In this document: in pieces, positions 18,377 to 46,260 of the stretch | Layout of the letters: every line of letters begins with the position of its first letter | How positions within the stretch are numbered: the stretch's first letter is position 1 | The notes under the pieces: model-generated | Databases searched by the model: none | Told to the model about the DNA's origin: nothing | Seen by the model: only the letters and a program-made list of their open reading frames with translations | Source of the DNA: Hyphomicrobiales bacterium | GTDB taxonomy: Bacteria; Pseudomonadota; Alphaproteobacteria; Rhizobiales; Rhizobiaceae | Length of the DNA: 64,000 nt | NCBI GenBank assembly: GCA_900469615.1 | Contig: UBYA01000001.1 | Location: 248,001 to 312,000 of the forward strand | Direction: 5' to 3' | Program-made: the position numbers and the translations under genes

Positions 18377-19531
18377 ATGAATGCAGGGAGCGGGGCGCCA
18401 CGTCGGGCGGAAATCGCCGGAGCCGGGATTGGCGGTCTGACGGCCGCGGCGGCTCTGGCGCAGCGTGGCTGGTCGGTGGTGGTTCATGAGCGTGCCCCGA
18501 ATCTACGCACCTACGGCGCGGGCATATATATCTGGAGCAACGGCCTGCGTGTATTGAAAGCCCTCGGCGCGCTGGAGCAGGCAACCGTCGGCGCTCATAT
18601 CGGACCGCAGTTCCACACCCGCGATCATAACAATACGACGATGGAGGAAATACCCATCAACGGTGCCGGCGATGCGCGGCTGGTGACTATCCTGCGCGAA
18701 CAGCTGATCGGCACCCTGGTCGATACCTGCCGCAAGGCGGGGGTTGAAATCGTCACGAATTCCGAAGCCTTATCGGCCACGCCGGACGGCGAACTGCTGC
18801 TTGCCGACGGCTCGAAGCGACAGGCCGACCTCGTCGTCGCAGCGGACGGCATCAATTCGCGGGTGCGCGATTCGCTCGATTTGTTGATGTATCGCAAGCA
18901 ACTGGGCTACGGCGCCATTCGAATGCTGATCGCGCGAGACGATGCGGATGTCCCCGCGGAAGATCGCGATCGCTACATCGAATATTTCACCGGAAGCCGG
19001 CGGATTCTCTATACGCCGGCCAGCGCCACGGACCTGTACGTGGCTTTGTGTTGTGCGGCAGACGACGAGAAGGCGCTGGCGGTGCCGGCGGATCGCGAGC
19101 TATGGGCGCAATCCTTTCCGCATCTTGCCCATCTCGTGTCGCGGTTTGGCGGCTCGGGCCGCTGGGATGCCTTCGAAGTCGTCAAGCTGAAGAGGTGGAG
19201 CAAGGGGCGCGTCGCGATTGTCGGCGATGCTGCTCATGCGATGCCTCCCTATCTCGGGCAAGGCGGCGGCTGCGCCCTGATGAACGGACTGGCATTGGCG
19301 GTCGCGGTCGACGGAGCGCTCGACGTGCCCCGGGCACTGACCGAATGGGAAGCGCGCGAACGGCCGATCACCGAGCACACGCAGGACACGGCCGAGCGTC
19401 TGGGCGATATGAACTTCTGGCCCGACGACGTGCGCTCCGAGGTCATGAAGATCACCGGCAGATGCGTCGAACTCGGTATGGAGCGCATGAAAACCGCCCG
19501 CTACGCGCCGGCCGCCACAGAGCCGGTCTGA
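18377..19531 (+). CDS. FAD-dependent monooxygenase of the MHPC-oxygenase / 4-oxoquinaldine-3-monooxygenase type
   Basis: A 384-residue single-component aromatic hydroxylase (class A flavoprotein). GAGIGG (residues 15-20) is the FAD-binding dinucleotide motif, VVAADGINSRVR is the second conserved DG region, and GDAAHAMPPYLGQGG is the FAD ribityl-binding motif. From memory it is closest to 2-methyl-3-hydroxypyridine-5-carboxylate oxygenase (shared GAGIY-W-NGLRVL stretch), hence an N-heteroaromatic substrate. GGAGG lies nine bases before 18377; an ATG at 18368 is possible. It is followed after 55 bases by a Hod-type dioxygenase, the arrangement used to hydroxylate a 4-quinolone at C3 and then open the ring. 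Alternative: salicylate-type hydroxylase. Confidence 0.82.
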   Translation: MNAGSGAPRRAEIAGAGIGGLTAAAALAQRGWSVVVHERAPNLRTYGAGIYIWSNGLRVLKALGALEQATVGAHIGPQFHTRDHNNTTMEEIPINGAGDARLVTILREQLIGTLVDTCRKAGVEIVTNSEALSATPDGELLLADGSKRQADLVVAADGINSRVRDSLDLLMYRKQLGYGAIRMLIARDDADVPAEDRDRYIEYFTGSRRILYTPASATDLYVALCCAADDEKALAVPADRELWAQSFPHLAHLVSRFGGSGRWDAFEVVKLKRWSKGRVAIVGDAAHAMPPYLGQGGGCALMNGLALAVAVDGALDVPRALTEWEARERPITEHTQDTAERLGDMNFWPDDVRSEVMKITGRCVELGMERMKTARYAPAATEPV

Positions 19532-29279: not shown

Positions 29280-30174
29280 AGCTGCAAAACCCGACGTCAA
29301 CGCTGACTTTTCGGATCATCGCGATGACCTGGCTCAATGCCCGCACGACCGCTCCCTTGTTCGTCGCGACGAACACTTCCTGCATGGGAAGTCGCGTCCG
29401 CGTCTTGAGCACCGTCAGCGACCCGCGGCGCAGTTGCTCCTGAAGCAGCCTTGGGGGCAGGATGCTGATTCCCGTACCGGCCTCCACCAGGTTCAGGATC
29501 GCACCCAGGCTGTTGCAGACATTCAGGCGCAGGCCGAGATTGCTGTTGCCGCGAAGCGCGTTCGTCGTCAGCGAATGCAGATTGGATGGCGCCGGCGTCG
29601 AGAATATGCGTTGGGAAAGGAGCGCGTCGTCGGAGACCTCATCCATTCCGGGGAACAGCTTCGGGCTCGCGATCCAGCTGACGGATTGCCGGCCGAGCAA
29701 TTCGAGCGCGACATTCTCATGAGCAGGCGGCGTCGAGACGACGGCGACGTCCAGCAGGCCTTCGGACAAGTCCTTTGCAAGATTGTGGCTGGTGTCCACC
29801 GTCGCGGCGATGCGGCTTCCGGCGAACCGCCGGTCGAGCTCGTCGAGCAGCGCGGGAAGGCAAGCGACCGCAAAGCTGTCCATGACCCCGACGCGCAGCG
29901 TCGGCAGGCGGGTATTCCGCGTGCGGATATTGGATTCGATATCGCGGGCGATGCCGATCATGGCTTCCGCATAGCCCTTGAGCGCTTCCCCCTCGCTCGT
30001 GAGCAGCAGCTGCCGCTTTTGCCGATGGAACAGCGAAACGCCAAGCTGCGTCTCGAGTTCGCGTATGCGATAGGAAACCGTCGGCTGTGTGACATTGAGC
30101 TGCTCGGCCGCAGCGTTGAAACTTTTCAGCTGCGACACCCAGTAGAAAGATTCCAGTGCGGACAAGCTCAACAT
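29278..30174 (-). CDS. LysR family transcriptional regulator
   Basis: A 298-residue regulator. The N-terminus MLSLSALESFYWVSQLKSFN is followed by AAEQLNVTQPTVSYRIRELE, a textbook winged HTH, and an effector domain from LRVGVMDSFAVACLP. The start at 30174 has GAGG six bases upstream; the longer frame to 30213 begins inside the operator-like element. It is divergent from the HD-domain/amino acid transporter operon and most likely controls it and itself. The ligand is unknown. Confidence 0.92.
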   Translation of the reverse strand: MLSLSALESFYWVSQLKSFNAAAEQLNVTQPTVSYRIRELETQLGVSLFHRQKRQLLLTSEGEALKGYAEAMIGIARDIESNIRTRNTRLPTLRVGVMDSFAVACLPALLDELDRRFAGSRIAATVDTSHNLAKDLSEGLLDVAVVSTPPAHENVALELLGRQSVSWIASPKLFPGMDEVSDDALLSQRIFSTPAPSNLHSLTTNALRGNSNLGLRLNVCNSLGAILNLVEAGTGISILPPRLLQEQLRRGSLTVLKTRTRLPMQEVFVATNKGAVVRALSQVIAMIRKVSVDVGFCS

Positions 30175-30186
30175 CGGGCGCCTCAA

Positions 30187-30207
30187 ATAGAATTTTTCTA
30201 TCGATAG
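30187..30207. promoter_or_regulatory. ATA-N9-TAT element, probable LysR operator
   Basis: ATAGAATTTTTCTAT (30187-30201) has the ATA-N9-TAT form described for Nac/Cbl-type LysR sites and contains the inverted repeat TAGAA/TTCTA. It overlaps a second palindrome CTATCGATAG (30198-30207). It lies 13 bases before the LysR start, which suits autorepression, and about 85 bases before the divergent HD gene. Confidence 0.55.
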
Positions 30208-30286
30208 CACCAATTATCCTAATTAGATTTTCAATGCGACAGCGAATAGGGTCAAAACATCAGCAAATGCAGCAGGTGTTGAAAAA

Positions 30287-30919
30287 ATGTACAAGACCAT
30301 TTCGCGCGCCCATATTTTAGAGGATTTGCCCGAGATCGACGAAATCTCTTCGGCCGATCTGCGGGAGAAGGTAATCGATGCCTGGGTCTTCGCGTTGGAA
30401 CGGTCTTCGTTCGATCGTGTGATCGACATCCCCGGCGAAGGCAGCCCAAATGTCTTTGCGCTGAAACGCGGCATGCAGGATGCCCATCTCCGCGGCGTGA
30501 CGCGTCTGGCGCTGGCGATCTATGAGGAATTCAAGGCGACCTTTCCGGAAGCCAGGGTCGATCGCGACATCATTCTCGCGGGCGGCCTTTGCCATGATAT
30601 CGGCAAGACATGGGAGTTCGATCCGGTAAATCTGCAGCGCTGGCGCGAGCGCGGCGATCGCTACGGCGAGCCGTCGTTCCGGCATTCGGCCTACGGCACG
30701 CATGTCTGCCTGTCGGTCGGGCTTCCCGAGGAGATCGGCCACATCTGCATGGGCCATTCGCTGGAGGGCGCGCATATTGGTCACAGCACCGAATGCTACA
30801 TCATTCGTCAGGCCGACCATACGTGGTGGCATGTCTCGGCTGCGCTGGATCTATGCCGCGCGGATACGATTGCATTCGCCGGACCCAATCTGCGCGTACG
30901 GCCGCTCGGCATACAGTGA
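30287..30919 (+). CDS. HD domain-containing hydrolase
   Basis: A 210-residue single-domain protein of the HD superfamily of metal-dependent phosphohydrolases and related lyases. The metal-binding residues appear as H67 (DAHLRG), H103-D104 (GLCHDIGKTW) and a later Asp near QADHTW. Further histidines (RHSAYGTH, MGHSLEGAHIGHS) suggest a full metal site. There is no nucleotide-signalling partner domain. It leads an operon with a polar amino acid transporter and a dehydrogenase, so a metabolic substrate is more likely than a signalling one. The precise reaction is unknown. Confidence 0.75.
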   Translation: MYKTISRAHILEDLPEIDEISSADLREKVIDAWVFALERSSFDRVIDIPGEGSPNVFALKRGMQDAHLRGVTRLALAIYEEFKATFPEARVDRDIILAGGLCHDIGKTWEFDPVNLQRWRERGDRYGEPSFRHSAYGTHVCLSVGLPEEIGHICMGHSLEGAHIGHSTECYIIRQADHTWWHVSAALDLCRADTIAFAGPNLRVRPLGIQ

Positions 30920-30962
30920 GCGCGGCGCTCGAACGCCGAGGCAAGGAAGATAGAGGAAGGTT

Positions 30963-31649
30963 ATGCACTACACCTTTCAGTTTGCCCCACTGCTGGCCTA
31001 CCTGCCGAAGTTCGCAAACGGTCTTTGGCTGACGCTCCTGCTGTCCCTGATCGGGATATTCGGAGGCATGGCGCTCGGTATCGCCTGTGCGGTGATCTCG
31101 ACGCTTCCTTACAGGCTTCCTCGCTTCCTGGTCCGCTGCTACGTCGAAATCATGCGCAACACACCGTTGCTCGTGCAGATTTTCCTGATCTTTTTCGGCC
31201 TGCCTAATCTGGGCATCAGGTTGTCGCCGCTGGTATCCGTGTGCATTGCGCTGGTTCTCAACAATGGTGGCTATATCGCCGAAATCGTCAGGGGCGGTAT
31301 CCAGTCGACCCATCGCAGCCAGCTGGAGGCCGCCGAGAGCCTCGGCATGACCTACGCCCAAACGCTCAGGTTCGTCATATTGCCGCCCGCACTCGAAAAG
31401 GTTTTCGCGCCGATCGTGTCGCAATGCGTCCTCTTGATGCTGTCGACGAGCCTGGTCGCGGCGATTGGTGTCGAGGACCTGTCCGGCGCGGCGATGATTG
31501 CGAGCTCCGAGACGTTCAGAACCATGGAAACCTACCTGGTGATCGGGGTGATCTATGTGGTGCTGAACTTCGTGTTTCGAGCGCTCCTGAATGTCTGTGG
31601 CCTGATCGTTTTCACGCGGTCTCGCCGTCGCCTGCTGGGGAGGGGTTGA
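30963..31649 (+). CDS. Polar amino acid ABC transporter permease (HisM/GlnP type)
   Basis: A 228-residue inner-membrane permease of the polar amino acid family. The family motif around RNTPLLVQIFLIFFGLPNLG (20 residues) is present, and the EAA loop reads QLEAAESLGMTYAQTLRFV. GAGGAAGG precedes the ATG. It pairs with the next permease, separated by one base. Confidence 0.92.
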   Translation: MHYTFQFAPLLAYLPKFANGLWLTLLLSLIGIFGGMALGIACAVISTLPYRLPRFLVRCYVEIMRNTPLLVQIFLIFFGLPNLGIRLSPLVSVCIALVLNNGGYIAEIVRGGIQSTHRSQLEAAESLGMTYAQTLRFVILPPALEKVFAPIVSQCVLLMLSTSLVAAIGVEDLSGAAMIASSETFRTMETYLVIGVIYVVLNFVFRALLNVCGLIVFTRSRRRLLGRG

Positions 31650-31650
31650 A

Positions 31651-32304
31651 ATGCGTTCGTTTGGCACGCCCGAATTTCTGTTCATCTTCTACGCTCTCAG
31701 ATGGACGCTCTTGCTGACGGCCATCGCCTTCGCGGGCGGCGCAATCGCCGGCATATTGCTTGCCCTGTTGAGGATTTCGAACAGTGCGATGGCGCGCAGC
31801 ATGGCTCTTGGGTTCATGCAGCTCATCCAGGGCCTGCCGCTGCTCATCCTTCTGTTTCTCTGCTACTACGCTCCATCCTTGTTGGGGCTGGAAGTGAGCG
31901 CCATGGTCGCCGCGGCAATCGCATTGACCATCAATTCCGGCGCGTTTCTGGGCGCGATTTGGGAAAGCGCTCTGAAGGCAATCCCCAGGGCACAGTGGGA
32001 GAGCGCCGATGCGCTGGCCCTGACGCCTTACAAGACCCTTCGCCATGTGATTGCGCCTCAGGCCGTGAAGCTTGCCTTGCCGTCGACCGTCGGCTTCCTG
32101 GTCCAGATCGTCAAGCAGACGTCGCTGGCGTCGATCATCGGCTTCATCGAGATTACGAGGGCAGGGCAGCTGGCCAGCAACGCGACGTTCGAGCCGCTCA
32201 AGGCCTTTCTGGTCGTGGCAGGATTTTATTTCATCGTCTGTTTCCCGCTGACACAGCTCAGCCTGTGGATGGAAGCGCGCACCGGGAGAGGGCGGGGTAT
32301 CTAG
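31651..32304 (+). CDS. Polar amino acid ABC transporter permease (HisQ/GlnP type)
   Basis: A 217-residue permease. It has the characteristic IQGLPLLILLFLCYYAPSLL stretch and an EAA loop reading QWESADALALTPYKTLRHVI. It is in close tandem with the preceding permease, so the two form a heterodimeric channel. Confidence 0.92.
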   Translation: MRSFGTPEFLFIFYALRWTLLLTAIAFAGGAIAGILLALLRISNSAMARSMALGFMQLIQGLPLLILLFLCYYAPSLLGLEVSAMVAAAIALTINSGAFLGAIWESALKAIPRAQWESADALALTPYKTLRHVIAPQAVKLALPSTVGFLVQIVKQTSLASIIGFIEITRAGQLASNATFEPLKAFLVVAGFYFIVCFPLTQLSLWMEARTGRGRGI

Positions 32305-32364
32305 CTTTTACACGGCCCGCAGAGGCCGGATTCAACTGGAACACAAAACTGAGAGGATATGAAA

Positions 32365-33153
32365 ATGCGTCTTAGAAATATCATTGTGGGCCTCCTCGGA
32401 CTGGTTGCGATAACGGCGACTGCCGTCGCGGCGGAAGCTTCTACGCTCGACGATATCATCGCGCGAAAGAAGGTCATGATCGGCGTCGACCTGTCCGTCC
32501 CGCCCTTCGGCATCACCAACGACCAGATGCAGCCAGATGGTCTCGATGTCGACGTTGCCAAGCTTTTGGCAAAAGACCTCGGCGTCCAGCTGGAATTGGT
32601 CCCCGTAACCGGCCAGAGCCGCATCCCGGCACTCCAGACGGGCAAGGTGGATTTCGTCGTGGCAAGCTTCGGCATCTACACCGAGCGCGCTTTGTCGATC
32701 GCATTCTCCAACCCCTATGGCGGCCACAAGTCCGTCATCGTCGCCCCCAAGGGTACGGAAATTCACAGCCTACAGGATCTTGCCGGCAAGCGCGTCGGAG
32801 TGCCGAGGGGCACGGCACATGAAAAAATGCTGTCCGAGGCGAACATCAAGGGCATGCAGCTGGTCCGCTTTGACGACGATAGCACGACCTTGAATGCGCT
32901 CGTCTCCGGCCAGGTCGATGCAATCGGGACCGTCAACTACATCGCGGCCCAGCTGCAGGAGCGTTATCCCGATCAGTATGAACAGAAGACGACCTATCTG
33001 CAGAGCTTCTACGGCGTCGGCATGCGCCGCAACGATCCGGACCTTCTGCATTGGGTCAACACCGTTCTGTTCGTCCACGAGCAAAGCGGCGAGCTCGGCA
33101 AAATCTACGAGAAGTGGATGAAGACGCCGATGCCGGAGCTGCCCTCCTTCTAA
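32365..33153 (+). CDS. Polar amino acid ABC transporter substrate-binding protein
   Basis: A 262-residue periplasmic family 3 binding protein. The signal peptide ends at AVA-AE. Family motifs follow: KKVMIGVDLSVPPFG, DGLDVDVAKLLAKDL, VDFVVASFGIYTERAL and GKRVGVPRGTAHEKML. It binds an amino acid or a similar small zwitterion; the ligand is not determinable. GAGAGG is eight bases before the ATG at 32365; the ATG at 32359 is too close to it. Confidence 0.92.
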   Translation: MRLRNIIVGLLGLVAITATAVAAEASTLDDIIARKKVMIGVDLSVPPFGITNDQMQPDGLDVDVAKLLAKDLGVQLELVPVTGQSRIPALQTGKVDFVVASFGIYTERALSIAFSNPYGGHKSVIVAPKGTEIHSLQDLAGKRVGVPRGTAHEKMLSEANIKGMQLVRFDDDSTTLNALVSGQVDAIGTVNYIAAQLQERYPDQYEQKTTYLQSFYGVGMRRNDPDLLHWVNTVLFVHEQSGELGKIYEKWMKTPMPELPSF

Positions 33154-33161
33154 AGTCTGGA

Positions 33162-33186
33162 GCGAAACCCTCCATGAGGGTTTCGC
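33162..33186 (+). other. Stem-loop between binding-protein and ATPase genes
   Basis: GCGAAACCCT (33162-33171), loop CCATG, AGGGTTTCGC (33177-33186): a perfect 10-base stem eight bases after the binding-protein stop. There is no U-run after it. Probably a 3' message stabiliser or partial terminator within the operon. Confidence 0.6.
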
Positions 33187-33205
33187 AAACCGCAAAGAGG
33201 TTTTC

Positions 33206-33937
33206 ATGTCAGTCGTCGTTGCGAAAGACATCCGCAAGAGCTTCGGCCCGCTTGAAGTTCTGAAAGGGGTTTCCCTGACCGTCGAGGCGGGAGAGGTCAT
33301 CTCCCTGATCGGCCGAAGCGGCTCCGGCAAGAGCACGTTCCTGCGTTGCCTGAACGGGTTGGAAAAGATCGATAGCGGCGACATCGAGGTGGCCGGGCAT
33401 GTAATGGATCGCAAGCCCGCCAGGCTTCGCGAACTTCGCCGCGATGTCGGTATCGTCTTCCAAAGCTACAACCTCTTTCCGCATCTGACTGCGGGCGAGA
33501 ATATCATGCTTGCGCCCGTCCAGGTGAATGGCCTCAGCAAGGCTGCCGCCCGCCAGGAAGCCGAAAGATGCCTGTCGCTCGTCGGGCTGGGGGATCGGTT
33601 CGGCACCTATCCCGACATGTTGTCTGGCGGGCAGCAGCAGCGCGTTGCCATCGCCCGGTCGCTGGCGATGAAGCCGAAGGTTCTTCTGTTCGACGAAGTG
33701 ACCTCGGCGCTCGACCCCGAATTGACGGGCGAGGTCCTCGCCGTGATCGAGAACCTCGCAAAGCAGGGAATGACGATGATTCTCGTCACCCATGAAATGG
33801 GCTTTGCCCGGCGCGTGGCGAACCGGACGATCTTCATGAAAGACGGCATCATCCACGAAGAGGGGCCTTCGGCCGAACTCTTCAGCGCGCCGAGGACGCC
33901 GGAGCTGAAAGCCTTCCTGCGTTCCGAAGTCGGTTGA
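33206..33937 (+). CDS. Polar amino acid ABC transporter ATP-binding protein (GlnQ/HisP type)
   Basis: A 243-residue ATPase with Walker A LIGRSGSGKSTFLRCLNGLE (20 residues), Q-loop IVFQSYNLFPHLT, signature LSGGQQQRVAIARSLA, Walker B VLLFDEVTSALDPEL and switch VTHEMGFARRVANR. It drives the two permeases upstream. AAAGAGG precedes its ATG. Confidence 0.94.
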   Translation: MSVVVAKDIRKSFGPLEVLKGVSLTVEAGEVISLIGRSGSGKSTFLRCLNGLEKIDSGDIEVAGHVMDRKPARLRELRRDVGIVFQSYNLFPHLTAGENIMLAPVQVNGLSKAAARQEAERCLSLVGLGDRFGTYPDMLSGGQQQRVAIARSLAMKPKVLLFDEVTSALDPELTGEVLAVIENLAKQGMTMILVTHEMGFARRVANRTIFMKDGIIHEEGPSAELFSAPRTPELKAFLRSEVG

Positions 33938-34001
33938 TCCAACCGCCAATTGAAAATCGATGAACGGCCGCGTCCATGGGACGGGCCGAGAGGAGAGCTT
34001 T

Positions 34002-34883
34002 GTGACACGCAAACGGACAGTCGCGATGGTCGGATGCGGCGTGATGGGGAGTGCCATCGCCACCCGTCTGCTGGCCCGGGGGCATGAACTTTTCGCGTAT
34101 GACCGCGACCCCGCCAAAATCGATGCCTTATGCGCCAAGGGCGCGATGAAAGCGGCGTCCGCCAGCCAGGCGGCGCAACGATCGGAATTCGTGATCCTCA
34201 GCCTGAATTCCGCGACCATCGTGCGCGCGGCCGTATTCGGCGAGGAGGGGGTGTCGACGGGAGCCCGCCGCAACACGGTCATTATCGACATGTCGTCGAT
34301 CGATCCGATCGCGACCAGAGCGCTGGCCAAGGATGCCGCCGATATCGGCTTGCCATGGCTTGATTGCCCACTTTCCGGCGGCGCCCCCAAGGCACTTCTC
34401 GGGAAGCTGACCGTCATGGCCGGCGGCGAGCGGGAAACGTTCGAAAGGGCTCGGACTGTCATGGCGGACCTTTGCGAAAACCTGACCTTGATGGGACCAA
34501 GCGGTTCCGGCCAGACGACGAAGCTGATCAACCAGGTCCTGTGCGCCCTCAATTTCGTTGCGGTCGCCGAAGCGACCCGGCTGGCCGTCGACGCCGGTGT
34601 CGATGCCCAGAGAATACCTGCGGCTCTGCAGGGCGGCAGAGCCGACAGCGCCATTCTCCAGGAGTTCATGGGAAAAATGGCTCGCCATGATTATTCGCCG
34701 ACGGGACGGATCGACAACATGGTCAAGGACCTCGATGCCGTGCAGTCGCTTGCGCGCACGACCGGCACGCCCATGCCGATGACGGCGCTTTGTATGGAAA
34801 TACACAAGGTTCTCGTATCCGCGGGCCTCGGGCCTGCCGACAACGCTGCGCTCATGCGCTTTTTCGATGGCCCCAGAGGTTGA
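34002..34883 (+). CDS. NAD(P)-dependent oxidoreductase, 3-hydroxyisobutyrate dehydrogenase family
   Basis: A 293-residue beta-hydroxyacid dehydrogenase. VGCGVMGSAIATRLL is the dinucleotide-binding motif, CPLSGGAPKALLGKLTVMAG the substrate-binding signature, and GSGQTTKLINQV contains the catalytic lysine (K in TTKLINQ). Likely start is GTG at 34002, following GAGGAGAG. Members oxidise 3-hydroxyisobutyrate, tartronate semialdehyde (reverse) or similar hydroxyacids. As part of the amino acid transporter operon it probably handles a downstream intermediate of the imported compound. Confidence 0.85.
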   Translation: MTRKRTVAMVGCGVMGSAIATRLLARGHELFAYDRDPAKIDALCAKGAMKAASASQAAQRSEFVILSLNSATIVRAAVFGEEGVSTGARRNTVIIDMSSIDPIATRALAKDAADIGLPWLDCPLSGGAPKALLGKLTVMAGGERETFERARTVMADLCENLTLMGPSGSGQTTKLINQVLCALNFVAVAEATRLAVDAGVDAQRIPAALQGGRADSAILQEFMGKMARHDYSPTGRIDNMVKDLDAVQSLARTTGTPMPMTALCMEIHKVLVSAGLGPADNAALMRFFDGPRG

Positions 34884-34896
34884 GAGGAGAGAAAAG

Positions 34897-35238
34897 ATGA
34901 TTACGCGATATGCCGAATTTGTCGGTGCCATCCATGCAGGCAGGGAAAACGATTTCTACGCCTTTGTCGAAGAGCGCCTCGTGCCGCTCTGGACGAAGTT
35001 CGAGGGCGCGACGGCGGTTAGCATATCGAGAGAAGTCTCGCGAGACGAGGGAGCGCCGTCGGTGCCGCTCCTGCTCGCGATCTCGTATCCGGACGAAGCC
35101 GCGCTGGAACGGGCAATGGCGTGCGACGCTCGTTTTCGGTCCCGGGAAGAAACCCAGGCGTTACTGACGATGTTCGACGGCACCATATTTCATCGCGTCA
35201 CCCGGCAAAGCAGCTACGAAGTCCGAAAAGCGGACTAA
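34897..35238 (+). CDS. Small conserved-looking protein, possible dimeric alpha/beta barrel
   Basis: A 113-residue protein with a strong ribosome site (GAGAGGAGAG) 13 bases after the dehydrogenase gene, so it is the last gene of the operon. It has no signal peptide or membrane segment. The pattern (helix-rich start, then VPLLLAISYPDEAALERAM and a later short strand) recalls the EthD/Dabb class of small ferredoxin-like proteins, which include enzymes and accessory factors. I do not recognise it with certainty; the function is unknown. Confidence 0.65.
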   Translation: MITRYAEFVGAIHAGRENDFYAFVEERLVPLWTKFEGATAVSISREVSRDEGAPSVPLLLAISYPDEAALERAMACDARFRSREETQALLTMFDGTIFHRVTRQSSYEVRKAD

Positions 35239-36156: not shown

Positions 36157-36792
36157 TCAGTCCGTAATCGCACCGGGCGTGCGTGCCGGATGCGCATTCA
36201 TAAATGCCGGTATCTCTTCCAGAGCCGCGCGAACTGCCCGGATGCGAGGCATGTCGGCAAGAGAGACACCCCAGCGGTCAGCATTGTAAAGCTGCGGGAC
36301 GAGGCAGATATCCGCCATCGATATCCGGTCGCCGTGGCAGAAGCGGCCGGTTGCGGGCGAGGCCAGCATCGCCTCGACCGCGAGGAGTCCGGGGCCGATG
36401 AATGTCCTCATCCATTCTTCCGCGGTGATGTGCTTTTCCGATGCGCTCACCACATGGCGAACCACCCGCAGGTTGCATACGGGGTGGATATCCATGGCGA
36501 TCGCATAGGCGATGGACCTCACCCTTGCCCGGCCTATGGGGTCGGCCGGCAGGAAGCCGGCGTGGCGCGTTTCATCGAGATACTCGATGATGGCCAGCGA
36601 TTGGGTCAGGATCGCGTCGTCGATCTCCAGGACCGGGACGAGACCTTGCGGATTGAGGGCCAGATGGGCCGGCTCCGTCTGGCGGCCCTTGGTCAGATCG
36701 ACGGAGACGGTCTCCCAGCTTTCGTTCAGGAGGCCAAGCGCGATCCGCAACCGATAGCTTGCCGACGAACGCCAGTAGTCATGCAATATCAT
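36157..36792 (-). CDS. maiA: Maleylacetoacetate isomerase, zeta-class glutathione S-transferase
   Basis: A 211-residue glutathione-dependent isomerase that turns maleylacetoacetate into fumarylacetoacetate in the homogentisate branch of tyrosine catabolism. The N-terminal thioredoxin-like domain has the zeta-class SSASYRLRIAL motif (residues 9-19) and the NPQGLVPVLE glutathione-binding stretch; the C-terminal helical domain has SMADICLVPQLYNA. Its start overlaps the end of the MarR gene by 14 bases. The partner genes hmgA and fahA are present only as fragments at 38691-39439, so this enzyme may be a leftover or serve another ring-cleavage pathway such as gentisate. Confidence 0.85.
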   Translation of the reverse strand: MILHDYWRSSASYRLRIALGLLNESWETVSVDLTKGRQTEPAHLALNPQGLVPVLEIDDAILTQSLAIIEYLDETRHAGFLPADPIGRARVRSIAYAIAMDIHPVCNLRVVRHVVSASEKHITAEEWMRTFIGPGLLAVEAMLASPATGRFCHGDRISMADICLVPQLYNADRWGVSLADMPRIRAVRAALEEIPAFMNAHPARTPGAITD

Positions 36793-37225
36793 GATCGTCC
36801 TCCTGCATCATGAGCTGCCGTAGCGCGTTCTGGAACACGCCCGCCGCAGGCCCGAGTTCGGCTTCAAGCTCCGCCTGGAACGCATCCGCGATCTCGACCA
36901 GCCGGCGCATCAGATCCTTCCCCGCCGCCGTCAGCGACAGGCTGACGAGGCGGCGGTCTTCTTCGTGTTCGCGTTTTTCCACGAGGCCCGCCTCTTCCAG
37001 GCGTGTTGCCGCGCGGCTCACCTTCGACTTTTCCATGTCGACGCGCTCATGGATGTCTTTCACGCTGACCGAGCCGGATTGCAGAAGATGGGCGAGCACG
37101 CGCCATTCCGGCATGGAGATGCCGGATTCGGCACCGTAAAGGCGCGCAAGCCGCCGGCTGACGCGGGCTGCGGCGACATTGAGCTGGTAGGGCAGAAATT
37201 GCTGAAGGTCGAAGCGTTTTGTCAT
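36779..37225 (-). CDS. MarR family transcriptional regulator
   Basis: A 148-residue winged-helix regulator (LAHLLQSGSVSVKDIHERVD, then MEKSKVSRAATRLEEAGLV and the DRRLVSLSLTAAGKDL wing). The start at 37225 gives MTKRFDLQQF; a longer frame upstream runs through the operator and is rejected. It is co-transcribed with maiA and divergent from an MHS transporter, with a strong palindrome 20 bases upstream. It probably represses both directions until an aromatic acid binds, and may be the former regulator of a complete homogentisate cluster. Confidence 0.9.
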   Translation of the reverse strand: MTKRFDLQQFLPYQLNVAAARVSRRLARLYGAESGISMPEWRVLAHLLQSGSVSVKDIHERVDMEKSKVSRAATRLEEAGLVEKREHEEDRRLVSLSLTAAGKDLMRRLVEIADAFQAELEAELGPAAGVFQNALRQLMMQEDDHDIA

Positions 37226-37239
37226 GATGAGTTTGTGGC

Positions 37240-37268
37240 TTGACTTCGTTGCAAATGCAACGAATATC
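37240..37268. promoter_or_regulatory. MarR operator embedded in the MHS transporter promoter
   Basis: TTCGTTGCA (37245-37253), AA, TGCAACGAA (37256-37264) is a perfect 9-base inverted repeat, the size of a MarR site. On the plus strand TTGACT (37240-37245) and, after 17 bases, AATATC (37263-37268) could be -35 and -10, so the operator lies between them. It is also 20 bases from the MarR start. Confidence 0.65.
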
Positions 37269-37332
37269 TCCGGCCGGCGAAGGAGCGCAGCCGGCAGATC
37301 GCATCCCGACGTTATCGAGGAGGATACACAGG

Positions 37333-38646
37333 ATGAGCATGCCCACCGCTCTGGCGGCGCAATCGGCTTCCGGTCACAAGTCATCCATCCGGCTGCTCTT
37401 TGCCAGCAGCGCCGGAACCGTCATCGAATGGTACGATTTCGCCGTCTTCGCGGTTTGCGCGGCCCTTGTTTTCAACACGGTATTCTTCCCCGGAGCGAAC
37501 CCGCTCACCGGCCTGATTGCCGCTCTGGCGACACAGGCAGTCGGTTTCGTCGCCCGCCCGCTCGGCGGCTGGTTCTTCGGTGTTCTGGGCGACAGGGTCG
37601 GCCGCAAGAAGAGCCTGGTTCTCAGTCTTTTCCTGATGGGCGGCTCCACGGTGGCGATGGGTCTGCTGCCGACCTACGCACAGGCTGGCATTATCGCGCC
37701 GGTCCTGCTGTTGCTCCTGCGTCTCCTGCAAGGCTTTGCCGTCGGCGGGGAATCGACCGGCGCCCTGGTCATGATCGCCGAAAGCCTGCCGGCCAACCGG
37801 CGCGGGCTCTGGACCGGGTTCCCGATGATCGGCGGGCCTGCCGGCAATGTGCTTGCGACGGCCGCGGTCGGCGGCGTTATCGGGCTCGTCGGCATCGAGG
37901 GCTTCATCGCGTGGGCGTGGCGCGTTCCGTTCCTGGCCTCTATCCTGCTCATTTCGGTCGGCATATGGGTCCGCCGCAAGGTGGAGGAATCGCCCGCCTT
38001 CATCGAGATTCAGGAAAAGAAGGAAGATGTCGTCAGGGCGCCTCTGCGCGAGGCGCTTGCCGAGCATCCCGGCAACATGCTGCGTGTCCTCCTGGTCAAG
38101 GCGGGCGAGAGCGCCCTGTTCTACCTGTTCTCGACTTTCTTCATCGTGCTGGCGACGGTCTATCTGAAGGCTCCCCGCGAGGCGGCGCTGAACGCGCTGT
38201 TCTTTGGTTCGCTCGTCGAGGTCGCCGCGATCTTGCTGGCCGGTGCCCTGGCGGACCGGATCGGACGACGGCCGGTAACGATCCTCGGGCTGGTCGGAGG
38301 CATAGCTGCCGGTTTTCATCTCTTTACGCTCGCCGAGGGAGCAACGGCATCCGAACTCGTGATCGCGACCCTGATGACCCTCATCTGCCACGGCATCATC
38401 GTGGGCGGCATGTCCGCCTATTTCACGGAGCTGTTCCCGGCACGCCTGCGCTACACTGCCATGTCGACCGCCTATTCGGTGGCGGCAGTCCTCGGCGGCG
38501 CGCTGGCGCCGATCATCGGCACCTGGCTTCTCGAAGGATTCGGTACGCCGATGGCCGTCGGTATCTATGCAGCCGTCATGGCGGTGCCGGCCATCCTCGT
38601 CATGGTGAAGACACCCGAAACCAAAGGCCGCGACCTGCTGCGCTGA
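37333..38646 (+). CDS. MFS transporter, metabolite:H+ symporter (MHS) family
   Basis: A 437-residue twelve-helix major facilitator protein. The hallmark GTVIEWYDFAVFAVCAAL region follows a short N-terminus, then RPLGGWFFGVLGDRVGRKKS (20 residues, MFS motif A) and ADRIGRRPVTILGL. MHS members import organic or aromatic acids with protons. The start at 37333 (MSMPTAL) is preferred to upstream in-frame codons that cover the operator. It is divergent from MarR-maiA and is followed directly by hmgA/fahA fragments, so it may once have imported homogentisate or a related aromatic acid. Confidence 0.9.
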   Translation: MSMPTALAAQSASGHKSSIRLLFASSAGTVIEWYDFAVFAVCAALVFNTVFFPGANPLTGLIAALATQAVGFVARPLGGWFFGVLGDRVGRKKSLVLSLFLMGGSTVAMGLLPTYAQAGIIAPVLLLLLRLLQGFAVGGESTGALVMIAESLPANRRGLWTGFPMIGGPAGNVLATAAVGGVIGLVGIEGFIAWAWRVPFLASILLISVGIWVRRKVEESPAFIEIQEKKEDVVRAPLREALAEHPGNMLRVLLVKAGESALFYLFSTFFIVLATVYLKAPREAALNALFFGSLVEVAAILLAGALADRIGRRPVTILGLVGGIAAGFHLFTLAEGATASELVIATLMTLICHGIIVGGMSAYFTELFPARLRYTAMSTAYSVAAVLGGALAPIIGTWLLEGFGTPMAVGIYAAVMAVPAILVMVKTPETKGRDLLR

Positions 38647-38690
38647 TCCCCGCCAGGCCCGCTTCTATTTCCTCATCGGCAAAGGCCGGC

Positions 38691-38819
38691 GCGATGCGTC
38701 CGCAGGGGCCCGATGACGATCTGACATGGATCACCGGCATGCGTACGATCACCACGGCGGGCGACGTCAACATACAGGTGGGCATGGCAAGCCACGTCTA
38801 CCTCGTCACCCGGTCGATG
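38691..38819 (+). pseudogene. hmgA: Fragment of homogentisate 1,2-dioxygenase
   Basis: In the frame starting at 38691 the translation contains LTWITGMRTITTAGDVNIQV and then GMASHVYLVTRSM. This fits the conserved HmgA segment that in human and rhizobial enzymes reads (from memory) like F-x-x-G-x-x-T-x-x-x-A-G-D-x-x-x-x-x-G-x-A-x-H. Only about 43 codons are left: the first hundred or so residues and the whole metal-binding C-terminal part are missing. The similarity stops at about 38819, where sequence matching fahA begins in a different frame. The fragment cannot be active. Confidence 0.65.
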
Positions 38820-39439
38820 CAGTGCTTCTCAACGACTGGTCGGCGCGCGATATCCAGACATGGGAATATCAGCCCCTGGGGCCGTTCCAGGCCAAGGCCA
38901 CTGCCACCACCATCAACCCGTGGATCGTCACCAAGGCGGCGCTGGATCCCTTCCGCGTGTCCACTCCGCCACGCGAGCGCCCTCTGCTCGCCTACCTTGG
39001 GGAACCCCGTCCGCTCAACTTCGACATAGAGCTCGCGGTGGCGCTGACCCCGCTTTCTGGTCAGGAAACCGTCATCTCGGCGACGAACGCCCGGGAGCTT
39101 TATTGTTCGGCGGCGCAGCCGTTGGCTCACCACGCAAGTTGCGGCTGTCCGATGAGGACCGGTGATCTGCTCGGCTCGGGTACGATTTCGGGGCCGGAGC
39201 GCACGAACCGGGGGAGCCTGCTGGAACTGACCCGGAACGGGCAGGAACCGCTCACCCTGCCCGACGGGCAGACGCGCGGATTTATCGAGGACGGCGACCA
39301 GCTGACGATCCGCGGATATGCGCATGGCGCCGGCTATCGCATCGGCTTTGGCGATTGCTCAGGTGAAATCCTGCCGGCGGTCAGCTTACCGAGCTGGGGC
39401 GGCGAAGGACATTCCGACGATATCGGGGAAGGTATCTAA
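38816..39439 (+). pseudogene. fahA: 3' half of fumarylacetoacetase
   Basis: From about 38816 the frame encodes AVLLNDWSARDIQTWEYQPL, then GPFQAKATATTINPWIV, the signature core of fumarylacetoacetase, and continues to a normal-looking C-terminus (GDLLGSGTISGP, FIEDGDQLTIRGY, GFGDCSGEILPA). The N-terminal half, including the SH3-like domain and the first metal ligands, is absent. The preceding DNA is an hmgA fragment in another frame. The full enzyme is about 420-440 residues; about 207 remain. It is therefore a deletion remnant, though a short product could still be translated from 38726. Confidence 0.8.
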
Positions 39440-40638: not shown

Positions 40639-41637
40639 CTATATCGTGGGGAAATGACAGGCTACCTTGCGGCCGGCGCCAAAGGGCTTTGGCTCTGGTC
40701 GCTCCGTGCGGCAGCGATCTTCTGCAATCGGGCAGCGGGGATGAAAGCGGCAGCCGGGCGGCGGGTTGAGGGGGCTCGGCACATCTCCGGTCAGCAGGAT
40801 ACGCCTGCGCGTACCGGCGCTCGTCGTTTCCACCACGGGAACCGCGGAGATCAGCGCCTGGCTGTAGGGGTGGGCCGGCGTCGAGAAGACCTCCTCGGCC
40901 GGTCCCTCCTCGACGATGGAGCCGAGATACATGACGGCGATGCGGGTCGAGACCTGGCGTACCACCGACAGGTCGTGGGCGATGAAGATATAGGTGAGCC
41001 CCAGCTTTTCCTGAAGGTCGGCGAGCAGGTTGACGATCTGCGCCTGCACCGACACGTCGAGCGCGGAGACGGGCTCGTCCAGTACCACCAGATCCGGATT
41101 GAGCGCGATGGCTCGCGCGATGCCGACGCGCTGGCGCTGGCCGCCGGAGAATTCATGCGGGTAGCGGGCGACGTGATCCGGCAGAAGGCCGACGATTTCG
41201 AAGAGTTCCGCAACGCGCCTGTCGATGTCGGCGGAGGAGAGTTTCGTGTGGATGCGCAGCGGTTCGGCGACGAGGTCACCGACGCGCCGGCGCGGATTGA
41301 GCGAAGCCGATGGGTCCTGAAAGACCATCTGCAGGCGGCGGCGCAACGGCCGCAACTCGTTCAGCGATTTGCCGGTGATGTCTTCGCCTTCGAAGAGCAG
41401 CTGGCCGCCGGTGATATCGTAGAGCCGTACCAGACAGCGCGCGAGCGTGGACTTGCCGCAGCCCGATTCACCCACGAGTCCGAGCGTTTCCCCGCGCTGG
41501 ACCGTCAGCGAGACGTTATCGACGGCGTGAACGGTCCGCCGGCCTTCCGCGGAAAACCGGGTGCCGATCGAAAAGCGCTTCATGAGCGAACGGGTTTCCA
41601 GAATGGGGCGGTGTGTGTTCGTCATGGCGTCGCTCAT
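40639..41637 (-). CDS. Dipeptide/oligopeptide ABC transporter ATP-binding protein (DppF/OppF type)
   Basis: A 332-residue ATPase with Walker [21 protein letters not shown] (20 residues), signature [18 protein letters not shown], Walker [15 protein letters not shown] and the C-terminal oligopeptide-transporter extension with a cysteine pair ([16 protein letters not shown]). It is the last gene of the peptide operon and overlaps the previous one by four bases (ATGA type). Confidence 0.94.
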
Positions 41638-42593
41638 GCTTGTGCCTCCCGAAGGCAGGCGGCGGCGTGCGTGCCGCCTCCGAGGGCCGGCTTTTCCGTC
41701 GTGCAGGCCTCATAGCGTACCGGACAGCGCGGTTCGAAGGCGCAACCGTGCGGCAGGCGTAGCAGTGAGGGCGGTGAGCCGGGAATGGCCGGCAGGCGGC
41801 GTGGTTTCTCGCCGGTCAGCGGCGGGATCGAACCGAGCAGCGCGCGGGTATAGGGATGGCGCGGTTCGGAAAACAGTGCCGCGCGGCTGCCGCGCTCCAC
41901 GATGCGGCCCGCATACATGACCATCACCCGATCGGCGAGCTCGGACACCACGCCCATGTCGTGCGTGATGAAAACCACCGCGGAATTGTGGGTGGCGCGC
42001 AGCTTGCGCACGAGATCGAGGATACCCGCCTGCACGGTGACGTCCAGTGCCGTCGTCGGTTCGTCGGCGACGAGCAGCGCCGGGTTGCAGGACAGCGCCA
42101 TGGCGATGACCGCGCGCTGGCGCATGCCGCCGGAAAGCTGGTGAGGATAGCGGGACATGGCCTCGCGCGGGTTGGGGAAATTCACCTCCGCCAGCAGTTC
42201 CTCCACCCGCGCCAATGCCTTCGCCTTGCTGATCTTCTGGTGAGCGCGGATCTGTTCGGCGATTTGCCAGCCGATCGTGTAGACGGGCGTCAGCGCCGTC
42301 ATCGGATCCTGGAAGATCATGGCGATCTCGCTGCCGCGCAGGTGTCGCAGCTCGCGTGCCGGCAGGCCGATCAGCTCGCGGCCGTTGTAGCGGATCGAGC
42401 CTTCGATGGTGGCGTTGGGGTCGTTGATCAGCCCCATGACCGCCAGCAGGGAGACGGTCTTGCCTGAGCCGGATTCTCCGACGACGCCGAGGATTTCGCC
42501 CTTGTCGAGATCGAAGGAAACACCGTCGATGGCCCGGATCAGGCCATCTTCGGTGCGGAACGATACCCGAAGGTCACGCACGGAGAGCATCAT
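41634..42593 (-). CDS. Dipeptide/oligopeptide ABC transporter ATP-binding protein (DppD/OppD type)
   Basis: A 319-residue ATPase. Walker A is [19 protein letters not shown], the signature is [19 protein letters not shown], Walker B is [14 protein letters not shown], and the C-terminal cysteine motif is [18 protein letters not shown]. It forms the ATPase heterodimer with the next gene's product. Start overlaps the permease stop by four bases. Confidence 0.94.
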
Positions 42594-43561
42594 GATGTCC
42601 TCACACGGGGGTCGAGAAGGATGTAGACGAAATCGACCACCGCATTGGCGACGACCACGAACATGGAGGCATACATCACCGTCGCCATGATCATCGGCAG
42701 ATCGAGGTTTTGCATCGCGTCATAGGTGAGCTTGCCGATGCCGTTCAGTCCGAAAACCACTTCGGTCAGGAGCGCGGAGCCGCCCACGAGGGCGCCGAAG
42801 TCGAGGCCGAACAAGGTGACGAAGGCGATCAGCGAAGTGCGCAGGGCATGACGCAGCAGGATACGGGTCTCCGACAGTCCCTTTGCCCGCGCCGTGCGGA
42901 TGAAATCCTCCTGCATGGACTCGATGATCGCGGCGCGCAGCACCCGGCCGTAGATGCCGATATAGAGGACGGCAAGCGTGATCCATGGAATGACCAGCGT
43001 GAGGAACCAGCCCTTGGGATCGCTCATCAGCGGCTTGTAGCCGAGGGGCGGCACCCAGGAGAACAGCCAGGTATCGTGATATCGGCTCTGGGTGATGAGG
43101 TTCATCACTTCGCCGAGCCAGTAGACGGGCATGGAGATGCCGAGCAGCCCGAGCGCCATCAGCAGCTTGTCCAGCCAGCTGTCGCGCGTGGCGGCCGCCA
43201 CGATGCCGATGACGACCGACACCACGACCCAGAGGATGGCCGCGCCGAAGACGAGCGACAGCGTGACCGGGATGGCGTCGAATACCGCCGGCACGACCTT
43301 CCAGCCGCGATTGACGAAGGAAGTGAGGTCGCCGGTGACGAAGATCTTCTTCATCATCAGTCCGTACTGCACATAAAGCGGCCGGTCGAAGCCGAAGGAG
43401 TGGCGCACGGCCTCCAGCACCTCGGGCGAAGCGTTGCGTCCGGCAATGCGTGCGGCGGGGTCGGCGCCGGGCGTGGCGAAGAAAATCAGGAAGACGATCA
43501 CCGAAATGCCGAACATCACGAACAGCATCTGACCGAAGCGGCGCAGGATGGCGTAGATCAT
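42590..43561 (-). CDS. Dipeptide/oligopeptide ABC transporter permease (DppB/OppB type)
   Basis: A 323-residue permease. The N-terminus MIYAILRRFGQMLFVMFGIS and the periplasmic DRPLYVQYGLMMKKIF region are DppB-like, as is the cytoplasmic loop IRTARAKGLSETRILLRHAL. The start at 43561 lies in a TGATG overlap with the DppC-type stop; a longer frame to 44095 only shadows the other permease. Here DppB follows DppC, the reverse of the usual order. Confidence 0.93.
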   Translation of the reverse strand: MIYAILRRFGQMLFVMFGISVIVFLIFFATPGADPAARIAGRNASPEVLEAVRHSFGFDRPLYVQYGLMMKKIFVTGDLTSFVNRGWKVVPAVFDAIPVTLSLVFGAAILWVVVSVVIGIVAAATRDSWLDKLLMALGLLGISMPVYWLGEVMNLITQSRYHDTWLFSWVPPLGYKPLMSDPKGWFLTLVIPWITLAVLYIGIYGRVLRAAIIESMQEDFIRTARAKGLSETRILLRHALRTSLIAFVTLFGLDFGALVGGSALLTEVVFGLNGIGKLTYDAMQNLDLPMIMATVMYASMFVVVANAVVDFVYILLDPRVRTS

Positions 43562-44577
43562 CAGGTGCGCCCCAGCTGGACCTTCGAGCGCGGGTCGAGC
43601 GCATCGCGCAGGCCGTCGCCGAACACGTTGAGCGCCATCACGGAGACCGCAATCGCAAGACCGGGCGCCAGCGCCACGATCGGGCGCGTATAGAGCAATG
43701 CCTGGCCGTCCTGGATGATCGTGCCCCAGCTCGCGGCCGGCGGCTGCACGCCGATGGAAAGAAAGGACAGCGCCGATTCCGTCAGCATGTTGAGCGCCAT
43801 CATCAGCGGCGTGAAGACGATAAGGGTCGTCGTGACGTTCGGCTGGATGTCGCGCCAGAGGATGCGCCGGCCGGGCACGCCGAGATTGATGGCGGCGAGA
43901 ACGAATTCGCTGTTGCGCAGCGAGAGGACCTGGCCGCGGATGGGACGCGCCACATAGGGTACGTAGACGATGCCGATGATGATGACAGGCAGCCAGAGAC
44001 TGCCCGATTCGATCAGGATCGGGCCGATGGATATGCCCTGCGCGATCGTCACGATGGAGAGCGAGATCGCAAGCAGGTAGATCGGAAACGCCCACAGAAC
44101 GTCGAGGAGGCGGGACAGCGCCGTGTCGGTGAGGCCGCCGAAATAGCCGGCGACAAGACCCGCCGCGGTGCCGATGATCAGCGTGAAGACGGTGGCTCCT
44201 CCAGCGATCATGAGGGAGTTCAGCCCCCCGTAGAGCAGGCGGGCCATGACGTCCCGCCCCTGGTTGTCCGAGCCGAGGAAGTAGTTGCCGAGTTCCCAGG
44301 TCGGGCCGATCGGCGTGTAGCCGAGGCCGAGCCCTTCCGTCGAAGCTTCCATCACGGGAACCTCGACGCCATCGACCTGGATGACGGCATCGAGCGTCGA
44401 CGTGAACGGATCCACGCCTGCCCAGCGCGCATAGAGCGGCGCGCTGAGACAGGAAAGGATGATGAGCAGGAAGATGGCAAGGGACGCCATGGCGGCCCTG
44501 TTACGTCTCAACCGCGCGAAAGCGAGGGCCCATGGCCCTCGCGTCCGGTGCTGAACGCCAACGGCTTCATTCGACAC
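43561..44577 (-). CDS. Dipeptide/oligopeptide ABC transporter permease (DppC/OppC type)
   Basis: A 338-residue permease with the cytoplasmic N-terminal extension typical of DppC (WALAFARLRRNRAAMASLAI) and the motif LGSDNQGRDVMARLLYGGLN. The EAA-like loop is EFVLAAINLGVPGRRILWRD. It contains a large periplasmic loop between helices 1 and 2. It lies 21 bases after the binding-protein gene. Confidence 0.93.
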   Translation of the reverse strand: MSNEAVGVQHRTRGPWALAFARLRRNRAAMASLAIFLLIILSCLSAPLYARWAGVDPFTSTLDAVIQVDGVEVPVMEASTEGLGLGYTPIGPTWELGNYFLGSDNQGRDVMARLLYGGLNSLMIAGGATVFTLIIGTAAGLVAGYFGGLTDTALSRLLDVLWAFPIYLLAISLSIVTIAQGISIGPILIESGSLWLPVIIIGIVYVPYVARPIRGQVLSLRNSEFVLAAINLGVPGRRILWRDIQPNVTTTLIVFTPLMMALNMLTESALSFLSIGVQPPAASWGTIIQDGQALLYTRPIVALAPGLAIAVSVMALNVFGDGLRDALDPRSKVQLGRT

Positions 44578-44598
44578 GCAAACCCCCTACGCCGGATA

Positions 44599-46260
44599 TC
44601 ACTGCACCCAGGACTGAGTGATCATCCAGTTGAACTGGCGGTTGAACCGGAAATTGCCGAGGCGCTTGCTGACGAAATCGAGACGCTTGGGCGTGAAGAG
44701 GCCGACGGCGGGCGCCTGGTCGGTGACTTGATGATCGATCTCGGCCCAGAGCGCATTTGCCGCGGTCTGATCGGTCACGCCGAGGTCGAGTGCCTTGTGC
44801 ATCTTCGCGTCGATCGCCTCGTCGCAGAAGCCGGCGATGTTGATCGAGGCGTCGGAGCCTTCGCGGAACGAGGCGCAGCCGAACAGGATATTCAGGAAGT
44901 CCGAAGCCGCCGGATAATCTTTGTACCACTGGGTCACAGACATCTGCACCTTGTTGTTGGTGTTCTGGATATAGGTGAACTGAATGTTGGCGGAAATCGG
45001 CTTGACGTCGGCGACGTAGCCGATGCTCGTCAGAACGCTCTGCAGGTAGACGCCGATGGAGCGCGAGACGGCGGTATCCTCGACGATGATCGTAACCTTC
45101 TGGCCCTTGGTGCCCGATTCCTCCACAAGCTGCTTGGCCTTTTCGAGATCGGGAGCCGACCACTTCGCACCCGGATTCTTCGTGTAGGGGCAATAATCCA
45201 CATGGCCGGGGAAATCCGGCGGCAGGACCTGGCAGACCGGCGAGGCGAGCACCTTGCCGCCGAAGAGCTTGACCAGCGTGTTGCGGTCGACGGCGAAGGC
45301 GACCGCCTGGCGGGCCTTGACGTTATCGAACGGGGCGAGGCGCGTGTTGAGCGGCGCGTACCACCAGGCCGAAAGCGGCGCGATGTGGAGCTGGTCCTTA
45401 TACTTGGTACCGAGCTCGGCAAGGCGGTCGCTCGGCAGCGCGTCGAACATCCAGTCCGCTTCGCCGTTCTGGATCGCCGTCACGGCCGCTTCCTCGGAAA
45501 GGCCGAAATCGTATTGCACCGTATCCGGATAGCCGTCCGGCTGTGCTTCCTCGCTCCATTGCTTGAAGTGTGGGTTGCGCGAGACGGTCATGCCCTTGTT
45601 GGGGTCGAAGGCGGAGATCATGTAGGGGCCGGTGCTCGGGATCGGCACGGAGCCCATGTCTTCGGCGGGCGTGTCGGCGGGGAGCGTCACGGCGTGGGGC
45701 AGGGCGAGCTTGTAGAGCAGCTCGGCATCCGGCTTGACGAGGTTGATCGTCACGGTGCCGGCCGCTTCGTCGCCCACGACGCCGCCCTCGAGCGTGCAGC
45801 TCTTGGTGTCGGCAAGGCATTTGTCCACGCCGACGATCCCGGCATAGAAGGTGCCGGAGGTCGGGCCGGAGACCTTGAAGATGCGCTGGAAGGAAGCGAC
45901 CACGTCCTTCACGCCGACCTCCTGGCCGGTGGAAAACTTGATGCCCTTGCGCAGCTTGAAGGTGAAGGTCTTGCCGTCGTTGGAAACTGCGGGCAGCACC
46001 TCGGCGAGGTCCGGAACGATGGTGAAGCCGTCCATGCCTTCGGCCTTGCGGAAGGCGACGAGGCCGTCATAGATCGGCTGGTACATCTGCCAGCCCTGGT
46101 CGGTGTAGTTGATGTGCGGGTCGAGCGTGCCGGCCGCAGAGCGGGCGAGAAGGCGCATCGTGCCGCCACGGTGTTCCTTGAGATATTCGGCCTGTGCCGG
46201 AGCCAGCCATCCGCCGGCCAGAAGCGCGGCGGCCGAGGCCGTCAAAAGCAGTTTCTTCAT
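44599..46260 (-). CDS. Peptide ABC transporter substrate-binding protein (family 5)
   Basis: A 553-residue periplasmic peptide-binding protein. The signal peptide ends at AQA-EY. Family 5 landmarks are GGTMRLLARSAAGTLDPHIN (20 residues), FKLRKGIKFSTGQEVGVKDV and VSRNPHFKQW. Length is typical of DppA/OppA-like proteins. It probably binds di- or oligopeptides, given two peptidases in the same operon. AAAAGGGGA precedes the start. Confidence 0.93.
   Translation of the reverse strand: MKKLLLTASAAALLAGGWLAPAQAEYLKEHRGGTMRLLARSAAGTLDPHINYTDQGWQMYQPIYDGLVAFRKAEGMDGFTIVPDLAEVLPAVSNDGKTFTFKLRKGIKFSTGQEVGVKDVVASFQRIFKVSGPTSGTFYAGIVGVDKCLADTKSCTLEGGVVGDEAAGTVTINLVKPDAELLYKLALPHAVTLPADTPAEDMGSVPIPSTGPYMISAFDPNKGMTVSRNPHFKQWSEEAQPDGYPDTVQYDFGLSEEAAVTAIQNGEADWMFDALPSDRLAELGTKYKDQLHIAPLSAWWYAPLNTRLAPFDNVKARQAVAFAVDRNTLVKLFGGKVLASPVCQVLPPDFPGHVDYCPYTKNPGAKWSAPDLEKAKQLVEESGTKGQKVTIIVEDTAVSRSIGVYLQSVLTSIGYVADVKPISANIQFTYIQNTNNKVQMSVTQWYKDYPAASDFLNILFGCASFREGSDASINIAGFCDEAIDAKMHKALDLGVTDQTAANALWAEIDHQVTDQAPAVGLFTPKRLDFVSKRLGNFRFNRQFNWMITQSWVQ

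Follow-up and report, generated by a model that had tools for sequence, protein, structure and literature searches.

Positions 36157 to 39439 of the window (i.e., the entire 64,000-nucleotide stretch analyzed here, from a Hyphomicrobiales bacterium of the family Rhizobiaceae) carry the remnant of a homogentisate degradation cluster, composed of maiA (maleylacetoacetate isomerase), a MarR-family regulator gene (marR), a divergent permease gene, and fragments of hmgA (homogentisate 1,2-dioxygenase) and fahA (fumarylacetoacetase). We consider it likely that this cluster was acquired and then pruned to maiA, marR, and the permease gene, that the native operon of the same genome lost its maiA, and that the pathway is now split over two contigs that each bear repC. 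The observations behind this reading are the gene fragments, two joints, the only maiA of the genome over the model cut-off, a block missing from the native locus, and the affinity of the surviving maiA to foreign rather than native sequences. An original prediction, made from the sequence and its open reading frames, described the stretch as a cluster decayed by one deletion between hmgA and fahA. The features are as follows.

36157 to 36792, minus strand: maiA, maleylacetoacetate isomerase (TIGR01262, 252.6 bits; cut-off, 171.05)
36779 to 37225, minus strand: MarR-family regulator gene (HmgR-like), overlapping maiA (Pfam MarR, 8e-17)
37240 to 37264, plus strand: TTGACT -35-like box, then the perfect palindrome TTCGTTGCA-AA-TGCAACGAA; candidate MarR operator and promoter
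37333 to 38646, plus strand: MHS-type MFS permease gene, 437 amino acids (Pfam Sugar_tr, 5.9e-32), located where the hmgA 5' portion would lie, behind the hmg promoter
38647 to 38708, plus strand: joint 1, a stretch of about 60 bp with no clear similarity to hmgA, from the end of the permease gene to the hmgA fragment
38709 to 38822, plus strand: internal hmgA fragment, HmgA residues ~121 to 158 of 454 (Pfam HgmA_N and tblastn)
38822 to 38823, plus strand: joint 2, from hmgA codon ~158 to fahA codon ~217, judged from relatives
38822 to 39439, plus strand: 3' part of a long-type fahA, residues 217 to 408 of 411 plus ~13 unmatched codons, open to the stop

The start codon of marR was set by alignment (end at about 37225), the mechanically called frame starting at 37384. 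The frames of maiA, marR, and the permease gene are all open; together with the model scores, this agrees with the claim that maiA and MarR look intact. Since maiA is also the only copy over the cut-off, the locus is not simply decayed.

Of the 14 TIGR01262 matches in the genome, the window maiA is the only one over the cut-off (next best, 69.9 bits). Its score places it within the TIGR01262 equivalog for maleylacetoacetate isomerase, and a glutathione-dependent activity is predicted for it. None of its 38 near-invariant positions is changed (average of 112 other maiA sequences, 0.61; largest, 4), and it appears free of the drift that marks the fahA piece described below. A quick maximum-likelihood tree (37 of 113 extracted maiA proteins; SH-aLRT support; no bootstrap) included 11 of the 21 named native loci, the rest having no qualifying, nonidentical row. 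The window maiA neighbors that of the Amaricoccus cluster (73% identity; SH-aLRT, 94) and lies in a 19-row group (support, 95) holding 18 of the 22 maiA sequences from long-type clusters (i.e., those with a long-type fahA), while a branch (support, 90) separates the 11 native Rhizobium sequences from it. The window maiA thus appears to group with Rhodobacterales-type clusters and to be foreign to the native Rhizobium maiA. Since fahA (74%), hmgA (84%), marR (65%; 53 to 59% to the MarR proteins of three others), and maiA (73%) all match the Amaricoccus cluster, the four pieces fit one acquired cluster. Movement of a native maiA into the window was considered as an origin; it is disfavored by the tree, and also because long-type clusters have the same maiA-marR arrangement.

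The native locus lies on another contig. The window is on contig C22, while the sole HgmA_C match of the genome is the intact hmgA at C21:705933, which answers the proposal that intact copies should be sought elsewhere. It is preceded by hppD (TIGR01263, 403.5 bits; cut-off, 277) and followed by a short-type fahA-like gene, which was named from its domains and place, the full-length model TIGR01266 not fitting it. No maiA follows. The flanking blocks (C21:703641 to 707478 and 707743 to 710786) are collinear with G051, and similar stretches are collinear with G044, G104, and G078 (82 to 87% identity). Between the two blocks lie ~265 bp without N, where these four congeners have 5.1 to 5.3 kb including maiA and further frames; thus, ~4.8 kb including maiA is missing behind the C21 fahA relative to them. 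A search of the genome for the missing block recovered only the fahA end, the window maiA (65%), and seven matches of 33 to 167 bp, and relocation of the block was rejected. Within the C21 gap, no remnant of the block scored better than an E value of 0.18, save at the edge of the downstream flank (E, 0.015 to 0.052). No complete long-type fahA over the TIGR01266 cut-off was found elsewhere in the genome. Two repC genes were found, one per contig (C21:496434 to 496955 and C22:32162 to 32683). C21 and C22 are probably two replicons, and a repABC replicon is the probable location of the native hmgA-fahA operon too; an assignment of C21 as the chromosome was dropped, since this contig also carries repC.

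Among the genomes of the genus (148; one per species), 114 have hmgA and 116 have maiA over the cut-off. The latter include all 114 with hmgA (110 by adjacency; the other four from the genome-wide match list), so hmgA does not appear to be kept without maiA. A strong maiA match starts 1.2 to 2.2 kb past the HgmA_C match on the same strand, leaving room for fahA, in 110 of these 114 genomes, in which hmgA-fahA-maiA is kept together. The exceptions are the studied genome, G013, G054, and G062. The hmgA genes of G013 and G062 are of the long type (86 to 89% to Peteryoungia), and G054 has a divergent hmgA (64%) with a long fahA (45%). The studied genome is the only one of the 114 with a native-type hmgA-fahA that lacks maiA behind it. 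At one G013 locus (L060), a long-type hmgA-fahA pair lies beside marR, with no match to maiA, MBL, or the FAD-monooxygenase in 14 kb; the one over-cut-off maiA of that genome is a weaker match (E, 5e-59). G013 is possibly another split pathway.

The scar in the window was delimited by tblastn with the proteins of four annotated clusters and with five HmgA proteins. Both of the expected similarities were found. That to hmgA extends from 38706 or 38712 to 38822 (residues 119 or 122 to 158 of ~454; 76 to 87% identity), with the stretch at 38706 to 38822 being 87% identical to residues 119 to 157 of Neorhizobium petrolearium HmgA. It is only 49% identical to the HmgA encoded elsewhere in the same genome. 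The frame at 38691 to 38819, for which a lack of hmgA similarity would have spoken against the original prediction, matches HgmA_N positions 101 to 136 of 273 (E, 4e-5; 23.5 bits; gathering score, 20.2). The piece predicted as ~43 codons of hmgA is therefore real, but its clear similarity covers ~38 codons, and it is an internal fragment rather than the 5' end, ~120 codons of which are absent. The complete pair of HgmA_N and HgmA_C expected of a functional homogentisate 1,2-dioxygenase does not occur in the window. The fahA similarity spans 38822 to 39397 (58 to 73% identity; the highest to residues 217 to 408 of the 411-residue Peteryoungia FahA), and positions 38816 to 39436 match the C-terminal FAA_hydrolase model. 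Against TIGR01266, the piece aligns to positions 230 to 420 of 420 with 238.8 bits, under the full-length cut-off of 375.3, and the window thus has no full-length fumarylacetoacetase.

A deletion appears to have joined hmgA codon ~158 to fahA codon ~217. As predicted, the reading frame changes across this joint, and what follows is the 3' part of fahA (the last ~192 residues); the joint itself is displaced from the proposed ~38816 to 38822 by tblastn and by the relatives compared, in which the parent genes overlap by 0 to 1 nucleotide. A direct repeat at the joint was rejected: the relatives read ATGCAG/GAC in hmgA and TAY-GTG in fahA, with 0 to 1 nucleotide shared. The deletion would measure ~1.5 kb if the lost stretch equals that of Peteryoungia. 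Since the 5' part of hmgA is also missing and the permease gene occupies the position at the hmgA promoter, a single deletion is insufficient, and at least two joints are needed. The proposed single internal deletion thus holds for the hmgA-fahA pair and the deletion joining it, but does not account for the loss of the first ~120 hmgA codons.

The fahA piece has probably been drifting for some time, as judged from its residues: 7 of 93 near-invariant residues (at least 95% conserved) are changed, compared with an average of 1.18 in 83 homologs, a single one of which has at least 7. The contrast is weak if only fully invariant positions are counted (1 of 62 changed; 13 of the 83 homologs have as many). 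Its frame contains no stop or frameshift over 205 codons, and its codon-phase G+C values are 0.654, 0.532, and 0.761. Because the frame is still uninterrupted, the gene loss at the window is probably not ancient; the same feature weakly supports the original view of the junction as a marker of recent loss, while the drifted residues weigh against it.

The remnant sits between two blocks that are shared separately with different congeners. The left flank (30000 to 35200) is 71 to 73% identical to G114, G072, G120, G106, G115, and G099, and the right flank (40640 to 46000, a peptide-ABC block) is 84% identical to G135 and 87 to 90% identical to two Shinella zoogloeoides plasmids.

The TTGACT-palindrome occurs once in the window and in none of 100 shuffles; since the site itself served to define the pattern, the count is informative only as to uniqueness. 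This arrangement also stands between marR and hmgA in Peteryoungia and, in less perfect form, in other clusters. Among long-type hmgA upstream regions (63 of 80 loci gave hmgA with enough upstream sequence; 20 simple shuffles per region), 28 of 63 contain the palindrome with at most 3 mismatches, compared with a mean best match of 8.0 mismatches in the shuffled regions. We infer that the palindrome may be the MarR operator and that the permease gene may have inherited the hmgA promoter.

The divergent transporter of the original prediction is present, but its score against TIGR00883 (379.6 bits; cut-off, 443.45) falls short of the subfamily, and we refer to it as MHS-type only. All three homologs found at 75 to 76% identity, on a Serratia proteamaculans plasmid and in two genomes of the same family (394 searched), adjoin marR-hmgA-fahA-maiA clusters. 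In these loci the permease gene is divergent from a second MarR gene, while the window MarR is of the first kind (identities: Serratia marR1, 55%; Serratia marR2, 36%; Gemmobacter MarR, 41%). Because the relatives pair the permease with the second MarR, its position at the hmgA promoter appears to be rearranged. No hmg genes were found near the more distant homologs examined, at 56 to 57% (L218 and L219) and 53% (Burkholderia multivorans); the comparison covered these neighborhoods, with three further family matches (49 to 57%) outside it. The neighborhood suggests that the permease may take up homogentisate or a precursor. A literature search on homogentisate transport matched no papers. The module of permease, marR2 and marR1, and hmgA-fahA-maiA occupies L206 (3327 to 9269), L216 (1134 to 7111), and L217 (1523 to 7574); the presence of this two-regulator module both on the conjugative plasmid of Serratia and in two genomes of the family to which the window belongs suggests that it moved across classes.

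We propose the following course of events. A long-type, Rhodobacterales-type cluster (maiA-marR divergent from hmgA-fahA) would have been acquired on a repC-bearing replicon by a bacterium of the genus Rhizobium that already had its own hppD, hmgA, fahA, and maiA. As the sequence shows, little of hmgA and only the second half of fahA are left in the acquired copy, with at least two joints, and the native operon lacks maiA and ~4.8 kb present there in four congeners. Loss of redundant genes in either order would give the same end state. The two incomplete sets may form one pathway, in which the MaiA encoded on C22 would work with the HmgA and FahA encoded on C21: native HppD, HmgA, and short-type FahA would be complemented by acquired MaiA. 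The acquired MarR may still act at its old operator and would now control both maiA-marR and, in the opposite direction, the MHS-type permease gene, the product of which probably transports a substrate of the pathway. A stronger form of this scheme, in which a complete native operon and a complete acquired one of different build were eroded complementarily, the pathway became obligately shared by two replicons, and the HmgR-like regulator captured the permease at the hmgA promoter left vacant, is one toward which we lean with less assurance.

Several points weigh against complementary loss. The midpoint root places four of the 22 long-type-cluster maiA sequences (Serratia, Neorhizobium, Ruegeria, and Sedimentitalea) on the same side as the native ones, the window maiA is absent from every starred set that spans up to half the tree rows, and the tree is quick and bootstrap-free. 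The nearest relative of the window maiA, at 73% identity, is too distant to point to a donor. The 13 further TIGR01262 matches (best, 69.9 bits) should also be considered, since GST-like genes could isomerize maleylacetoacetate. Regarding regulation, 35 of the 63 long-type hmgA upstream regions have no close copy of the palindrome, and none with at most 3 mismatches was found in the 9-kb native locus. Four other congeners with hmgA close to that of C21 (G043, G088, G142, and G023) keep maiA, but in the stretches compared their downstream flank is not that of C21, so the C21 deletion is deduced from G051, G044, G104, and G078. The assembly is in draft form, with 55 contigs.

Plain decay, in which one deletion struck an hmgA-fahA operon on a dispensable replicon and the rest is on its way out, agrees with the reality of the joint and with the intact hmgA and fahA-like gene elsewhere in the genome; it is improbable, since an hmgA piece without its 5' part calls for more than one deletion and since maiA has remained intact and conserved, with no other copy in the genome over the cut-off. 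We regard as less probable still that maiA, marR, and the permease gene were re-purposed (e.g., for gentisate-type isomerization and aromatic acid uptake), leaving the native hmgA-fahA with no dedicated isomerase. MaiA-type enzymes overlap with maleylpyruvate isomerases, the assignment of a substrate to the permease is tentative, and the native locus has no operator within 3 mismatches. The re-purposing reading is opposed by the equivalog-level score of maiA, by the hmg clusters adjoining the three closest permease homologs found, and by the fact that none of the 114 hmgA-bearing congeners is without maiA.

The draft state of the assembly gives some room for a false join at 38822 or in the C21 gap. 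We think this very unlikely: an intact gene that had been misjoined would not be expected to have drifted at 7 of 93 near-invariant residues, and the sequence on either side of the C21 gap is collinear with that of four congeners. Finally, the 237-amino-acid frame at 38726 to 39439 is open throughout and might be taken as a new working protein, formed by the C-terminal domain of FahA with a new N terminus. The frame lacks the first ~216 residues of FahA, among which are the catalytic histidine and some of the metal-binding site, and its remaining residues drift; we give this possibility almost no credence.

Complementary loss, as we reconstruct it, falls under xenologous gene displacement as a variant and does not constitute a novel type of system. 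The native copy is gone from its ancestral place (~265 bp versus 5.1 to 5.3 kb), the remaining copy is of foreign lineage (SH-aLRT of 90 to 95 on the relevant branches of the tree), and the foreign maiA is predicted to perform the native function. If true, this would be a natural case in which redundancy after transfer was resolved per pathway step rather than by replacement of a whole operon. An otherwise accessory replicon would carry a needed step, and loss of the replicon or of maiA would stop tyrosine breakdown at maleylacetoacetate. It would also serve as a warning that the sole copy of an enzyme gene may lie in a cluster that annotation treats as a remnant of pseudogenes. Such a split pathway is not described in the titles and abstract openings of the literature searched, which is no proof of its being unpublished.

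The window resembles the long-type clusters of a Peteryoungia desertarenae plasmid, Amaricoccus macauensis, and Thioclava indica in that maiA-marR is divergent from hmgA-fahA and FahA is of the long type, and it shares the TTGACT-operator arrangement with Peteryoungia. In intact long-type clusters, however, hmgA lies directly behind the divergent promoter, where the window has the permease gene followed by hmgA and fahA fragments. The MBL gene that follows fahA in Peteryoungia and Thioclava is without a counterpart in the window, where the FAD-monooxygenase of the long-type clusters has only a distant match (25%; 18413 to 19297). The C21 locus is like the native Rhizobium operon in that hppD, hmgA, and the short-type fahA are present and collinear with congeners, but unlike the native hmgA-fahA(short)-maiA operon, it lacks maiA and ~4.8 kb behind fahA relative to four congeners. 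The closest published parallel considered, with needed steps encoded on a plasmid, is panCB of Rhizobium etli, housekeeping genes located on p42f; the authors of that article (PMC3082293) weighed xenologous displacement and favored native chromosome-to-plasmid transfer. The two cases are alike in sharing a pathway between replicons, whereas an acquired xenolog is indicated here by the tree together with the order of the genes.

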